Origin: Methanobrevibacter millerae
GTDB lineage: Archaea > Methanobacteriota > Methanobacteria > Methanobacteriales > Methanobacteriaceae
Reading direction: 5' to 3'
Length of the DNA stretch: 64,000 nt
Assembly (NCBI RefSeq): GCF_900103415.1
Contig: NZ_FMXB01000001.1
Location: 124,001-188,000, forward strand
A program made the position numbers and the translations under genes. The notes under the pieces were generated by a model. That model worked only from the letters and a program-made list of their open reading frames with translations, searched no databases and was not told where the DNA came from. Below are positions 2,553 through 19,810 of the stretch, in pieces (position 1 is the stretch's first letter; the number at the start of each line of letters is the position of its first letter).

Positions 2553-3635
2553 GTGAAAATGACTGATGATAATTTTATTGGCGTTACAACGGGTACCGTA
2601 GCCACTGCGTGTTCTCTTGCAGCCATAGATGCCATTTTGGATTCATCAGATATTGTTTGCGTTAATGTTGAAACTCCCAAAAAGAAACTGGATATTCTCA
2701 TTGACGACTGCCGCAAGCTGTCCGATTCGTCCGCATGTGCAGTAGCCCACAAGAATCCATATAACGATCCTGACGTTACTGTTAATCTGGCAATCGTTGC
2801 CCATGTGGAGCTGATTGACTTTGAAGGCGAAAAGGTTATCATTACAGGTGGCGAAGGAGTCGGCATAATCACAAAGCCCGGCCTTCAGATTGAGGTCGGC
2901 GATTACGCGATAAATCCCGTTCCGCGAAAAATGATAAGAAAGAACCTTGAAGATAAGGTTCCTGAAGGCAAAAGCGCAAAAGTTACCATTTCCATTCCAA
3001 AAGGCTGTGAAATCGCTAAAAAGACAATGAATCCAAAGCTTGGAATTGTCGGAGGCATTTCCGTTCTGGGAACAACAGGAATCGCAAGATCAATGTCCAG
3101 CGAAGCCTATAAGAATTCCATAGTTACTCAAATCGATGTGGCCATTGCAACAAAGGTTGATAATCTGGTATTCGTTCCGGGAAATATCGGTGAAAAATTG
3201 GCTTTAAAAAGACTGGACATTACAAAAGAACAGATTATCCAAACCGGAAACTATGTCGGATTCATGTTTGAGGAAGCCAAAAAGAGAGGAATCGACAGAT
3301 TTACCTTCTTTGGACATATCGGGAAATTGATTAAGGTCGCCGGAGGAATATTCAATACAAAGCATGCCGTAGCAGACGGAAGGCGTGAGATAATGATTAC
3401 CCATGCGGGAATCTGCGGTGCCGAAAGGGAAATTCTTGAAAGGCTGTACGATTCGGCCACAACCGATGACATGCTCGATATTCTAAGCGAAATAAACCTT
3501 CAGAAGGAAGTTGCAAACAGCATCGCAACAGCAATAAAGCAGCGTTGCGCCCAGCGCTTTGAATTGGAGCTTGACGTTATTCTCGTTGACATGGAAGGAA
3601 ATTATTTGAATGACAATATGGAGGGCTTTGTATGA
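2553..3635 (+). CDS. cbiD: Cobalt-precorrin-5B C1-methyltransferase
   Basis: CbiD performs the C1 methylation step of the anaerobic corrin pathway toward cobamides, which methanogens need for methyl-transfer enzymes. The N-terminal GVTTGTVATACSLAA stretch (about residues 9-23) is the family hallmark, and 360 residues is the usual length. Start is uncertain: GTG at 2553 or ATG at 2559 in the same frame, neither with a strong ribosome site. The stop overlaps the next gene (ATGA at 3632-3635), so it is translationally coupled with the glycosyltransferase. Confidence 0.9.
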   Translation: MKMTDDNFIGVTTGTVATACSLAAIDAILDSSDIVCVNVETPKKKLDILIDDCRKLSDSSACAVAHKNPYNDPDVTVNLAIVAHVELIDFEGEKVIITGGEGVGIITKPGLQIEVGDYAINPVPRKMIRKNLEDKVPEGKSAKVTISIPKGCEIAKKTMNPKLGIVGGISVLGTTGIARSMSSEAYKNSIVTQIDVAIATKVDNLVFVPGNIGEKLALKRLDITKEQIIQTGNYVGFMFEEAKKRGIDRFTFFGHIGKLIKVAGGIFNTKHAVADGRREIMITHAGICGAEREILERLYDSATTDDMLDILSEINLQKEVANSIATAIKQRCAQRFELELDVILVDMEGNYLNDNMEGFV

Positions 3636-10624: not shown

Positions 10625-11878
10625 ATGGAAAATGGAATAGACTCTGAAAAAGAAGCTTTACAATCTTTAGTCAGGTCTTGTTTATTAGAGCTCAATAAAC
10701 TTAAATTCGATTTAACAGAGCTCGAGGTAGAAAAAGCAAATGATAACTCTGCCTCTCGGATTAGAGAACTCGAACAAGATATTGTAGACAAAGAAAAAGA
10801 AGTTTCCGTAATAAAATTCAAAGCAGAAGAAGAAGTAAATCAACTACGGAATCAACTGGACGAAAAGGATTTGCTGATTAAAAATCAGGAAGATCGCATT
10901 TATGAACTTGATTACGTTAACAATTCCTTGGAAGAAATCAAGACTTATTTTGCTGAGCAGTTAATGGATTACAAGAAGAAAGAACTGTCCGAAGTTAATG
11001 AAAGATTAAACGAGTCTTACAGAAGCATTGCCGAAAAGGATGCTCAAATCAACAGTCTTTCAAGGACCATTGACGATTACAAGATTCAGGTTATCAAGCT
11101 GGAAAACGACGCTGGCGCCCAGCAGGAAATTATGGAGCTTGAAAAGCAAATAGAATTCAAGAACAGGGAACTCCAGCAAAAGGATAATGAAATTACCATG
11201 ATTGACAACCAGCTTGTCATGTTAAAAGAGCAGTCTATCCCTAAAGAGGATTATGATAATCTGCAGGCTCAGTTTGAATATGAAGTTGCCGCAATGAATA
11301 ATCAAATAACTACTCTCAAGGAGCAGTCTATCCCTAAAGAGGATTATGACAGTCTGCAGAGTCAGTTTGAATATGAAGTTGCTGAAATGAACAGCGAAAT
11401 AGCTACCCTTAAAGAACAGTCTATCCCTAAAGAAGATTATTTAAGTCTTCAAAAGCTATTGGAAAATGAAGTTGCAGCAATGGATCAAGAGATTAACTCA
11501 CTTAAAGAAAATTCTATCCCGCGCAGAGATTATGTTAATCTCCAAACCCACTTTGAAAATGAACTGTCCGCAAGGGACAATGAGCTCAAGTACTTCAAGG
11601 AACAGACAATACCTCGTACCGAGTACATTGACTTGCAGAACAAGCTTCAAAATGAGATTAATGCAAAGGATAATGAGCTCAAATACCTGAAAGAGCAAAC
11701 TGTTTCACGTGAAGAGTTTATCAACCTCCAAAACGAATTGTTGCGTAAAAACGACAAAATCAAACGTTTGGAAGAAATTAATGCATTCTTCAATGAACTT
11801 CAAGAAGAACAGGACTCTTATGAAACTATCGAAAGGACACCTCCTTTCAGATTAGAGAAAAAAGAGCCTAGACGTTAG
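10625..11878 (+). CDS. Coiled-coil protein with six 31-residue repeats
   Basis: A 417-residue acidic, almost wholly helical protein with no recognised enzyme domain. Residues 1-199 are ordinary coiled coil. Residues 200-385 consist of six tandem 31-residue units, each opening LKEQSIPKEDY or a variant and ending near an acidic heptad stretch. The first three units are close at the DNA level, so duplication is recent. Each unit contains one proline, so the coil should kink every 31 residues. No signal peptide or membrane segment is visible, so it is likely cytosolic and structural. Another coiled-coil protein with a similar PKEEY segment is encoded at 49998-50903. Confidence 0.75.
   Translation: MENGIDSEKEALQSLVRSCLLELNKLKFDLTELEVEKANDNSASRIRELEQDIVDKEKEVSVIKFKAEEEVNQLRNQLDEKDLLIKNQEDRIYELDYVNNSLEEIKTYFAEQLMDYKKKELSEVNERLNESYRSIAEKDAQINSLSRTIDDYKIQVIKLENDAGAQQEIMELEKQIEFKNRELQQKDNEITMIDNQLVMLKEQSIPKEDYDNLQAQFEYEVAAMNNQITTLKEQSIPKEDYDSLQSQFEYEVAEMNSEIATLKEQSIPKEDYLSLQKLLENEVAAMDQEINSLKENSIPRRDYVNLQTHFENELSARDNELKYFKEQTIPRTEYIDLQNKLQNEINAKDNELKYLKEQTVSREEFINLQNELLRKNDKIKRLEEINAFFNELQEEQDSYETIERTPPFRLEKKEPRR
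11222..11779 (+). repeat. Six tandem 93-bp coding repeats
   Basis: Units start at 11222, 11315, 11408, 11501, 11594 and 11687. The core GAGCAGTCTATCCCTAAAGA recurs almost unchanged in the first three, then decays toward the 3' end. All units keep the frame. Confidence 0.85.
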
Positions 11879-17104: not shown

Positions 17105-17392
17105 TTATATTAATTTTTTCAGCTTATAAAATGCTTCGCTCTCATTTATGAGTTTTGGGGTTGCTTCATAGATTGAACCATATTCCGTATTTTTCTTTTC
17201 AATCAGGTTATGCTTCAGCATAATCTGCATATGATAATAGGCTGTATTGTAGCTGATATCGAGGATATTAGCTATTTGATTCGGATTGTATGGTCTTACC
17301 AGAATCTTTTCGATTATTCTGGCAGTGGTTTTTCCTCCCTTTTTTTGAAGAAGGATAACCTTTAGCGTATTTATATCTTTATTGTCATTCAT
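17105..17392 (-). CDS. Small winged-helix transcription regulator
   Basis: About 95 residues, all one winged-helix domain: PYNPNQIANILDISYNTAYYHM is a helix-turn-helix, followed by a wing with EKKNTEYGSIYEATPK. It resembles archaeal ArsR-like regulators. GGTGAT at 17400-17405 favours ATG 17392 over the GTG at 17404. The gene overlaps the 3' end of the next regulator upstream, so all three regulators (17105-19052) are probably one transcript. Confidence 0.75.
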   Translation of the reverse strand: MNDNKDINTLKVILLQKKGGKTTARIIEKILVRPYNPNQIANILDISYNTAYYHMQIMLKHNLIEKKNTEYGSIYEATPKLINESEAFYKLKKLI

Positions 17393-18197
17393 AGTCATTA
17401 TCACCTTTGTATGCGTTAAATACTCCTTTGCTCCATTTCAAGGCATTTTCATGTTTGTCAATGAGCATTTGCGAATCATCGTAATGATTATCCTTGAAAA
17501 ACAATGTCAAGGCCATGAACTTTTCAGAGAAGGTCAGGAATATTTTCAGGTCTTCCCTGGTTTCTATCACAGTAACTTTCCTGTTTTCAAGCAGCGATTT
17601 TTTCAGATATCGGTTCCTTCTCATGTTCTTGAGAATTTTCGAATTGATTAAAATCGTCAGGCTGATTAGCTGATTTTCTTTCAAAAGCTTTATGAGATTG
17701 TTGAAATGATTCTCCGAATAAATCGGCAGAATTATTGTCAGTTCTCTTGATGTTGAAATCAGTTCAACGTAGCTGTTGTATGCGTTGGACAAGTCACTTG
17801 TTGTCGACGAGACGAATTTTGCGTCTTTTAAAAGATATAATTTGTTTAAGTAATCATCCGGAATTCCTCGAAGGTCGTGGTTGTTCCAGAAGATCTTATT
17901 CTTTTCAATCGAATACCAGTTATCAATCAGTTTGATAACGTTTGTTGCAAGTAAGTAGCCGTTGGAAGTCAATGAATAGTCTTTTTTGTCTTTTTTAATC
18001 AATTCATCGCTTTCCAGTTCTTTCAAGCCGTGCAATATTGTTGCGGAAGGTTTTTTGAGCTCGTCCCTTATTTCATTAAGGTTTTTGCTTTCATTGTAGA
18101 GGACTACCAGAATCAGCGTGCGCATTGAGGACGTCAGCAGATACTTGACATTCTGGAATTCATTGAGATTGTTGAAGTTTTCCGTTGTGGAGGTCAT
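17385..18197 (-). CDS. FilR1-like winged-helix regulator (DUF1724 type)
   Basis: A 270-residue regulator with an N-terminal winged helix (LNEIRDELKKPSATILHGLKELE) and a larger C-terminal region of the type found in methanogen proteins related to FilR1. The C-terminal part contains an SRELTIILPIYSENH-like segment that may sense a ligand. Its start codon abuts the stop of the preceding regulator and the end overlaps the small one. It resembles the 18198-19052 product in layout, so the pair are probably old duplicates. Confidence 0.72.
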   Translation of the reverse strand: MTSTTENFNNLNEFQNVKYLLTSSMRTLILVVLYNESKNLNEIRDELKKPSATILHGLKELESDELIKKDKKDYSLTSNGYLLATNVIKLIDNWYSIEKNKIFWNNHDLRGIPDDYLNKLYLLKDAKFVSSTTSDLSNAYNSYVELISTSRELTIILPIYSENHFNNLIKLLKENQLISLTILINSKILKNMRRNRYLKKSLLENRKVTVIETREDLKIFLTFSEKFMALTLFFKDNHYDDSQMLIDKHENALKWSKGVFNAYKGDNDYE

Positions 18198-19052
18198 TTA
18201 AATCACTCTTTCTTTGATGTCTTCAAATAGCGTATTCGCCCAATGCAGTGATTCCTTTGATTCACAGTTCAGTATTCTGTTCTGATCGTAGCTGCCATCA
18301 TTGCGAAACAGTCCCAGATTCATTGAATTGTCACATATGAGCAGGTAAAGCTCAATGCTTTCATTAAGTACATGAATCTTCAGCCGTCCGCTTTTAATTG
18401 ATTTGCGCTTAATGCCCTCGTCAATCTGTTTGATAATGCCTTTGTATATCCTTCTCTCCATAATCAATTCGACATTTCCGTCTTCCCTTAAAATGTCTTC
18501 AATCAATTCCGGATAGTCCGGATGAATGTAAGGCAGTATCCCTTTCACATTTTTAGACTCTTTCAGCTGCTTCTTTACATTATTGTGAGTTCTATAAATG
18601 TCGGTTGGATTCGTTTCAATCAACCTTGATTCATAAAGCTCTGTTATATTTTCTATTAACTCATTATTTAAGTATTTTATCTTATGTTTGCTCCAAAATG
18701 AGTCAAAGTTCTTGATAACGTCTATGCTTTTTTTGAATTCCATTAGCTGATTGAAGTGAAGCCTTGTCATGGGAGTAATTTCATATACTCTGTCAATTTT
18801 TTGAACATGATCATTGAGCTCTAATCTGTTAATGTTATTTGAAACGGAGCTGTAAACCATATTGGTATTGTCTACGATTTCTTTTACTGTCTGTGGCCTT
18901 GCATTTAGTTCTGTTAGTATTTTTAATCGAATTTCTGACTTTACGATAAACATCATCTTGTTGTCAATATAATCGCTGTCCCTTATCATTTTCTTCACCG
19001 CATAATTTTTTTCAATCGGGTCAATTCTTGTCAGTGATTGAAATATGTTCAC
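18198..19052 (-). CDS. FilR1-like winged-helix regulator beside the 11-bp array
   Basis: A 284-residue protein with an N-terminal winged helix (RPQTVKEIVDNTNMVYSSVS) and the same kind of C-terminal domain as its neighbour, ending with the shared HWANTLFEDI-type motif. The start is GTG 19052. A TATA-like box lies only ~30 bases upstream on the minus strand, so the mRNA is probably leaderless or nearly so. The divergent upstream DNA is the 17-copy 11-bp array, so this regulator is the prime candidate to bind it and control itself and nob1. That is inference from position. Confidence 0.72.
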   Translation of the reverse strand: MNIFQSLTRIDPIEKNYAVKKMIRDSDYIDNKMMFIVKSEIRLKILTELNARPQTVKEIVDNTNMVYSSVSNNINRLELNDHVQKIDRVYEITPMTRLHFNQLMEFKKSIDVIKNFDSFWSKHKIKYLNNELIENITELYESRLIETNPTDIYRTHNNVKKQLKESKNVKGILPYIHPDYPELIEDILREDGNVELIMERRIYKGIIKQIDEGIKRKSIKSGRLKIHVLNESIELYLLICDNSMNLGLFRNDGSYDQNRILNCESKESLHWANTLFEDIKERVI

Positions 19053-19088
19053 GTTATTAGTTTTTTTCTATGATGTTTAAATAAATAT

Positions 19089-19275
19089 ATGAAAATTCCC
19101 TGAATATTCCATTAATATTTCATGAAAATTCTATGAACATTCACTGAAAGTTTCCTTAACGTTTCATGAAGATTGACTGAAACTTCTCTGAAAGTATCCT
19201 GAAATTTGGGTGAAACTTCACTGAAGCTTGGGTGAAAATTCCATGAAACTTCCCTGAAGATTAACCGAAAACTTT
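19089..19275. repeat. 17-copy 11-bp tandem array between divergent promoters
   Basis: Seventeen contiguous 11-bp units without a single insertion or deletion. Consensus is NTGAANNTTNN; the AA at unit positions 4-5 is present in all 17 units and T at positions 8 and 9 in 16 each. Many units contain the palindrome GAANNTTC. The array starts right at the TATA region of the minus-strand regulator (19052) and ends inside the TATA region of nob1 (19298). The 11-bp period puts every unit on nearly the same face of the helix. It may be an operator array, a bent-DNA element or an archaeal histone positioning tract. Confidence 0.9.
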
Positions 19276-19297
19276 TATAGATTTTCAAATCAAAGAT
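19273..19297 (+). promoter_or_regulatory. Core promoter of nob1, leaderless
   Basis: TTTTATAG (19273-19280) is about 24 bases before ATG 19298, so transcription should begin at or next to the start codon. No ribosome site is present, which fits a leaderless mRNA. The last array unit overlaps the left edge of the box. Confidence 0.45.
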
Positions 19298-19810
19298 ATG
19301 TTTATGGAAATTTACTATATTCTTGATGCATCAGCTTTCATCAACGGTTTTGATTTAACCGCAAAAAATAATTATACTGTTCCTGAAATTACTGTCGAAA
19401 TCAAGGACTTTGAGTCACGTCTGGCATATGACAGCGCAGTCGATGAGGGAAGGCTTAAAGTTCAGGACGTAACCCAAAAGTACCTGGATAAAACTGACGA
19501 GTCAATATCAGAGTCTGGAGACGTTTTGAGACTGTCACTGCCAGATAAAAAGCTGATAGCACTTGCCCTCATGCTAATCGATGAGGGAAAATCAGTTAAG
19601 GTGATAAGCGATGACTACACCATCCAGAACACCTTGAAGATTATGGGAATCGACTATTCCGGAATAATAACCGAGGGAATAAAGGAAATCTATAACTGGA
19701 AAAAAGTCTGTCAGGGATGCAAAAAGGAATTCGATGAGGATTACCCTTTCGACGACTGCGACGTATGCGGCTCCAGGATTTTCAAAAAAAGAATCAGGGT
19801 GAGGAAATGA
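19298..19810 (+). CDS. nob1: rRNA maturation endonuclease Nob1 (PIN plus zinc ribbon)
   Basis: Nob1 cuts the 3' end of 16S rRNA during small-subunit maturation. The N-terminal PIN domain starts YYILDASAFINGF with the first catalytic Asp, contains an acidic SLPDKKLIALAL motif and VISDDYTIQN, and ends in a zinc ribbon with CQGC and CDVC pairs. 170 residues is usual for archaea. An alternative ATG is two codons in (19304). It overlaps the DUF2117 gene by four bases. It is odd for a housekeeping ribosome gene to share a promoter region with a long repeat array. Confidence 0.9.
   Translation: MFMEIYYILDASAFINGFDLTAKNNYTVPEITVEIKDFESRLAYDSAVDEGRLKVQDVTQKYLDKTDESISESGDVLRLSLPDKKLIALALMLIDEGKSVKVISDDYTIQNTLKIMGIDYSGIITEGIKEIYNWKKVCQGCKKEFDEDYPFDDCDVCGSRIFKKRIRVRK

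Follow-up and report, generated by a model that had tools for sequence, protein, structure and literature searches.

Between the genes for a FilR1-like regulator and nob1 lies a tract of evenly spaced 11-bp repeats, which raises two questions: to which of these genes does it belong, and what does it do there? The tract stands in a window of 64,000 nucleotides (the whole stretch of Methanobrevibacter millerae DNA that was analysed), within a genome of 2.72 Mb. We split the intergenic stretch into units and obtained 17 contiguous 11-mers with zero indels. Comparing the array with itself at lag 11, we found an identity of 0.648, whereas same-length stretches elsewhere in the window reached at most 0.46. 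The sequence-only reading, which had described an indel-free array of 17 copies of 11 bp, was thus right on this point. Its claim of AA at positions 4 and 5 of every unit also held, with A at both positions in 17/17 units. T stood at position 2 in 16/17 units, G at position 3 in 15/17, and T at positions 8 and 9 in 16/17 each. The whole 245-bp intergenic stretch gave a lag-11 identity of 0.581, against a mean of 0.293 (s.d. 0.029, maximum 0.406) in 10,000 dinucleotide shuffles. The array is a real, constrained cis element, far above chance. A search of Rfam over 18900-19400 returned zero matches. The features around the array are collected in Table 1. Elsewhere in the window, a tandem repeat of 93 bp in about 3 copies was observed at 11225-11520.

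Table 1. Array, genes and promoter elements at the locus (positions within the window).
Feature	Position	Strand	Remark
Small HTH_20 protein, overlapping the second regulator gene	17105..17404	-	Possible third operon member
Second FilR1_middle regulator gene	17385..18197	-	Directly behind the first
FilR1-like regulator, N-terminal winged HTH and FilR1_middle (PF08350)	18198..19052	-	Possibly starts at the ATG at 18989 instead
TATA-like box of the FilR1-like gene, TTTAAATA on the + strand	19076..19083	-	Putative TATA role, from sequence
Array, 17 contiguous 11-bp units	19089..19275	.	Consensus NTGAANNTTNN; TG side faces the FilR1-like gene
nob1 TATA-like sequence, overlapping the end of the last array unit	19274..19279	+	By eye
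nob1 (PIN_6)	19298..19810	+	Many relatives align from residue 3, the ATG at 19304

The first unit in the window begins 13 bp from the start of the TATA-like box of the FilR1-like gene, and the interval between them presumably holds the BRE. This gene had been thought likely to be leaderless. It probably is not, as FilR1 orthologues start near codon 18989, 63 bp inside the GTG proposed earlier, and GGTGA precedes that ATG. In many genomes, weaker matches lie directly behind the FilR1 orthologue, and five PF08350 genes are present in the genome of the window. To the right of the array are nob1 and the genes for a DUF2117 protein and an AIR-synthase-like protein.

To settle the ownership of the array, we surveyed 67 genomes of the genus. 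The regulator was matched in 65 of them at E 0.001, with orthologue-grade matches in 62 by a reading of the list. Five of the 67 genomes carry no clear FilR1 orthologue, and those five are incomplete (75-84%). Upstream regions were taken at 62 loci, one of which (L083) was too short. In the remaining 61, we compared lags 6-17 over the first 450 bp. Lag 11 was the best of these lags upstream of FilR1 orthologues in 57/61 loci, including four ties (L087, L129, L130 and L144). It was the best in 0/10 upstream regions of FilR1 paralogues and in 0/19 loci of other genera in the family (of 20 fetched, these 19 were long enough). At L033, L035 and L070, the array lies with FilR1 and nob1 is 1.1-3.7 kb distant; across loci, the distance from the array end to nob1 ranges from 14 to 3668 bp. 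At L034, L036 and L038, neither a FilR1 match nor an array was found near nob1, and L034 and L036 reach little upstream sequence. Taken together, these six loci rule out nob1 as the owner. From the lag-11 signal at the orthologues, the placement in L033, L035 and L070, and the 0/19 in other genera, we conclude that the array belongs to the FilR1-like regulator. It looks like an innovation of the genus Methanobrevibacter.

The sequence-only reading had proposed a search for arrays upstream of nob1 homologues. Such arrays are found where FilR1 adjoins nob1, but at the three loci with a distant nob1 the array stays with FilR1. In the window, the array touches the nob1 TATA-like sequence, and in L037 it ends 14 bp from nob1; such contact could place nob1 under shared regulation, but it is not conserved. 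Upstream of nob1 in two other genera, strong signals of period 9 (L067) and period 10 (L068) were observed at loci with no FilR1 match.

Is the array placed with respect to the promoter? We scored arrays with two unit motifs, TKAANNTT and CMAANNTT, at a threshold score of at least 5, and took the best TTTAAATA-like match within 45 bp as the TATA-like box. By this measure, 49/61 orthologue loci carry arrays, of 4-17 scored units each, and the other 12/61 score below it with both motifs. In 40/49 scored arrays, 12-15 bp separate the start of the first unit from the start of the box, mostly exactly 13 bp in clade A and 14 bp in clade B. In another 5/49, the unit start lies 25-26 bp from the box, which is one unit more. 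The gap that remains between the box and the array is roughly BRE-sized. In one genome (G052), one array reaches the contig end and a longer array lies on another contig.

The units themselves come in two types, TKAANNTT in clade A and CMAANNTT in clade B. Among 98 clade A units from 11 loci, position 2 is T in 96% and position 3 is G in 81%, and AA and TT both exceed 90%. Among 296 clade B units (34/47 loci, the other 13 having been dropped from the logo for low score), position 2 is C in 95%, position 3 is C in 72% or A in 21%, and position 11 is T in 80%. The orientation of the units to the promoter is forward in 11/11 clade A loci and in 34/34 scored clade B loci. Since the pooled units are directional, we regard them as direct repeats with a palindromic AANNTT core and not as full palindromes. 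The palindrome noticed earlier in the units is accordingly incomplete; exact GAANNTTC lies inside 8/17 window units (by eye, from the unit list).

These regularities bear on two rival explanations. A neutral tandem repeat spread by slippage would fit the variable copy number, and some arrays are indeed homogenised or show higher-order repeats, as in G052. However, the units are divergent yet exactly spaced, they keep a TATA-like register and a fixed orientation, and matching copies occur in trans, which makes this explanation barely credible. The other is a histone-positioning or intrinsically bent tract, whose periodic AA/TT would wrap or bend the DNA and set promoter access. We consider it improbable, although AA and TT return with each turn of the helix in nearly all units and a periodicity of ~10 bp in AA/TT is described for a subset of archaea (PMC3372288). 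The period here is exactly 11 bp and not ~10, and the register to the TATA-like box is fixed. Moreover, the histone tract and the bent-DNA switch suggested earlier leave unexplained the clade-switched TG or CC positions and the fixed orientation of the units, which are conserved in cis and in trans.

Arrays also occur away from FilR1. Across the 67 genomes, TKAA-type arrays (one mismatch) were found in all 12 clade A genomes and otherwise as single matches in G009, G024 and G049. They lie clearly away from FilR1 in five clade A genomes (G000, G018, G045, G047 and G052). Many clade B genomes have CMAA-type arrays at places other than FilR1, and in clade A genomes this type appears as single matches in G016 and G027 only. 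Trans arrays bear the unit type of their own genome, and the cis and trans unit logos agree. The genome of the window has a second array at C11:40007-40101. Weak matches in the same genome at C37, the C6 end, the C30 end, C26, C5, C2, C13, C7 and a second C11 place were rejected, as they score near other periods.

Examining 21 trans loci (20 fetched, and the one of the window's genome), we found that 4/5 clear TKAA-type loci (L107, L219, L220 and L222) share a single gene family, as judged from a tblastn search with the L222 gene as query; the L220 gene gave a sub-threshold match to Rpn nucleases. Of the CCAA-type trans arrays, nine lie at a 50-residue gene, and another three lie at DUF6932-like genes (Pfam on L230 only). 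The genes reached by trans arrays are often of provirus or mobile type. Short CCAA-type trans arrays begin 12-14 bp from a TATA-like box in 10/12 cases, and TKAA-type ones hold the register less well (2/5 at 12-15 bp). At the usual place, a TATA-like box is missing from two long arrays (L235 and L237) and from L223, and L228 has a weak one only. Relatives of the 50-residue mini-gene occupy 30 places in 21/67 genomes; by reading, about 13 of these have an array before the box and the others do not.

An array that is locked to the FilR1 promoter and reused at other genes in relatives is probably the regulator's own landing strip. On this comparative evidence, we think it likely that the array is an iterated upstream operator of the FilR1-like winged-helix protein, serving autoregulation and a small, partly mobile regulon. 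Among the functions suggested by the sequence-only reading, an operator serving the neighbouring regulator has good comparative support: the array accompanies the FilR1-like gene, stands in fixed register to its TATA-like box and reappears in trans with matching unit type.

What kind of protein would bind it? FilR1_middle (PF08350) matched residues 152-282 of the FilR1-like protein with E 3.7e-25 and 88.8 bits, against a cut-off of 27. The Pfam scan gave no receiver-domain family, and the PF08350 match ends at residue 282 of 284; we therefore class it as a FilR1_middle protein and not as a response regulator. Its Pfam HTH matches fall below the cut-off. In the AlphaFold model, the winged HTH is confident (block pLDDT 93-96 over residues 21-70; elements H19-30, H35-42, H46-58, E62-65 and E68-71), and confidence in the C-terminal domain is mixed, with a mean of 77.4. 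The five best Foldseek chains are all TrmBL2 (E 1.6e-9 to 4.8e-8, TM 0.39-0.41), among them 5bpd_D with E 1.6e-9 and TM 0.39. By VIA-align, the HTH part resembles ArsR proteins (CzrA, Z 13.7, rmsd 1.9, 89 residues) and the remainder resembles TrmB and PLD-like domains (2f5t, Z 12.1, rmsd 2.5, 124 residues). As modelled, the closest solved fold would be that of the TrmB family, a winged HTH with a TrmB/PLD-like domain, TrmBL2 being the best; the domain arrangement is unlike TrmBL2, with an rmsd above 10 across the whole TrmBL2 chain. The TrmB sequence domains PF01978 and PF11495 gave no match in the protein at E 0.001, and the family profile gave none at 0.01 against the sequences of solved structures.

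The predicted recognition helix, YSSVS[NS]N, barely differs between the TGAA and CCAA clades, and it is nearly identical in paralogues without arrays. Inspecting 71 proteins, several of them blank at this place, we saw no residue that covaries cleanly with unit type. A near-constant helix leaves the unit switch unexplained by protein sequence, and this is the main gap in the operator argument. It also favours a promoter operator with another binder, namely the second FilR1_middle protein, the HTH_20 protein or an unlinked factor, FilR1 being merely a target. The first two are of DNA-binding type and are encoded beside the first gene. Nevertheless, we regard another binder as rather unlikely: the promoter marked by the array has FilR1 as its first gene, and an unlinked factor would need its motif to switch in step with the FilR1 clades.

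If the FilR1-like protein is the binder, one of its winged-helix domains would occupy each 11-bp unit. The proteins would line up head to tail on one DNA face, from just upstream of the BRE/TATA of their own operon, and occupancy of the array would autoregulate that operon. Shorter arrays of the matching unit type, upstream of other promoters, would place those genes under common control. Binding by FilR1, cooperativity and a filament-like assembly are what we infer here. As to the sign of control, activation is somewhat favoured because the array lies upstream of the BRE and because of the FilR1 and TrmB precedents. Autorepression is also possible; the TATA-like boxes deviate little from a common form, which leaves no obvious need for an activator.

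Among these precedents, the FilR1 of Methanosaeta harundinacea, which likewise has a winged HTH and a PF08350 domain, is described to bind and stimulate its own promoter (PMC3991700, PMC5847659), with expression from it up 8-fold in an E. coli reporter (PMC3991700). It contains a receiver domain and has a kinase as its partner, whereas the FilR1-like protein here is without a C-terminal receiver domain. The terms 'direct repeat' and 'consensus' are absent from the available text of PMC3991700. TrmBL2 dimers are reported to place HTH domains in adjacent major grooves and to form cooperative filaments (PMC4877046), and TrmBL2 binds coding and intergenic regions broadly. TrmBL1/Tgr are described to activate when the site is upstream of the BRE/TATA (PMC4158304), and sites upstream of the BRE as typical of activators (PMC5512572, PMC4158304).

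Smaller precedents for the array are already known in CarH and EarA. CarH and CarA are bacterial MerR-type winged-helix repressors. Oligomeric DNA-binding domains of these proteins are described to bind tandem 11-bp direct repeats on one DNA face at promoters (PMC9304148), and tandem 11-bp direct repeats at a promoter are what we see here. However, the CarH operator as described has three to five TnnACA repeats, a B12-binding regulator and -35/-10 promoters, whereas our arrays have 4-17 or more units with an AANNTT core, an archaeal TATA promoter and a FilR1/TrmB-like protein. There is no TnnACA in the TKAANNTT or CMAANNTT units, and the Pfam scan gave no B12-binding domain. In archaea, several EarA sites are described directly upstream of the BRE in the fla promoter of Methanococcus maripaludis (PMC5512572), much as the repeated sites here lie directly upstream of a putative BRE and the TATA-like box. 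EarA has four 6-bp sites at one operon, and the available source text describes no contiguous 11-bp array. MalR, with two repeats, is another smaller archaeal precedent. The earlier statement that no archaeal element like the array had been described was too strong in view of EarA and MalR, which are precedents on a smaller scale. Searches of the open-licence PMC literature turned up no account of an array of this kind in Methanobrevibacter, nor of long, length-variable arrays in archaea.

The anatomy also recalls TubR-tubC and AspA, in which, as described, a winged-helix protein coats DNA, iterated or extended, upstream of the gene or operon that encodes it (PMC5016525, PMC5120986). The array could then be a centromere-like partition site, its iterons coated by the winged-helix protein. 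We find this very improbable, as these are partition systems with motor proteins, no motor NTPase gene is present among the eight neighbouring proteins scanned, and many trans arrays stand at promoters in TATA register.

An operator bound by its own regulator would make both the operator and the regulon of an uncharacterised family of archaeal regulators in gut methanogens ready to test. The unit type switched in step in cis and in trans, a natural experiment on the joint change of operator and regulon, and the array copies associated with proviruses suggest that a control circuit of the host is tapped by mobile elements. A wider and more doubtful proposal is a genus-wide code, in which a TrmB/FilR1-like protein would polymerise on length-variable 11-bp arrays and array length would set the promoter response. 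Provirus, DUF6932 and Rpn-like genes would then carry host-type arrays to obey or titrate the host regulator, and a change of unit alphabet between the clades would have taken place jointly in cis and in trans.

We also noted the gene content of several trans loci. At L224, L229, L231, L232 and L234, the array and the 50-residue gene adjoin provirus terminase (PF03237) or portal-like genes, and the variable cargo at these loci includes a KAP NTPase like PifA, a GmrSD-type gene (HEC-06/Orf5) and an MkoA-like helicase. These sites look like a provirus defence-cargo hotspot. At L230, L233 and L238, a DUF6932-like gene has a second small gene behind it, and a CCAA-type array lies close to the promoter; PADLOC calls the L230 DUF6932-like gene PDC-M63A. 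The pair is a possible two-gene toxin-antitoxin or defence unit. L237 holds 42 scored CCAA-type units at ~3050-3520, near a PDC-S09-type nucleotidyltransferase gene, and L235 holds 12 at ~2900-3120; these two long arrays are possible decoys.

In viral contigs, two CCAA-type patterns gave 0 matches. The TKAA-type pattern gave 36 stretches; the arrays in these consist for the most part of homogeneous simple repeats, and their GC content varies widely. Phage records gave zero matches to the FilR1-like regulator or the 50-residue mini-protein. Identical sets of four imperfect GAATTTTCA-type units were seen near two contig ends (L109 ~3000-3050 and L110 ~2990-3040), and the open frame behind those of L110 is presumably transposase-like. 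In the genome of the window, the Rpn-like gene that adjoins the trans array is split between frames (L107 3098-3957), and it is followed by a gene that we take to encode fructose-bisphosphate aldolase/phosphatase.
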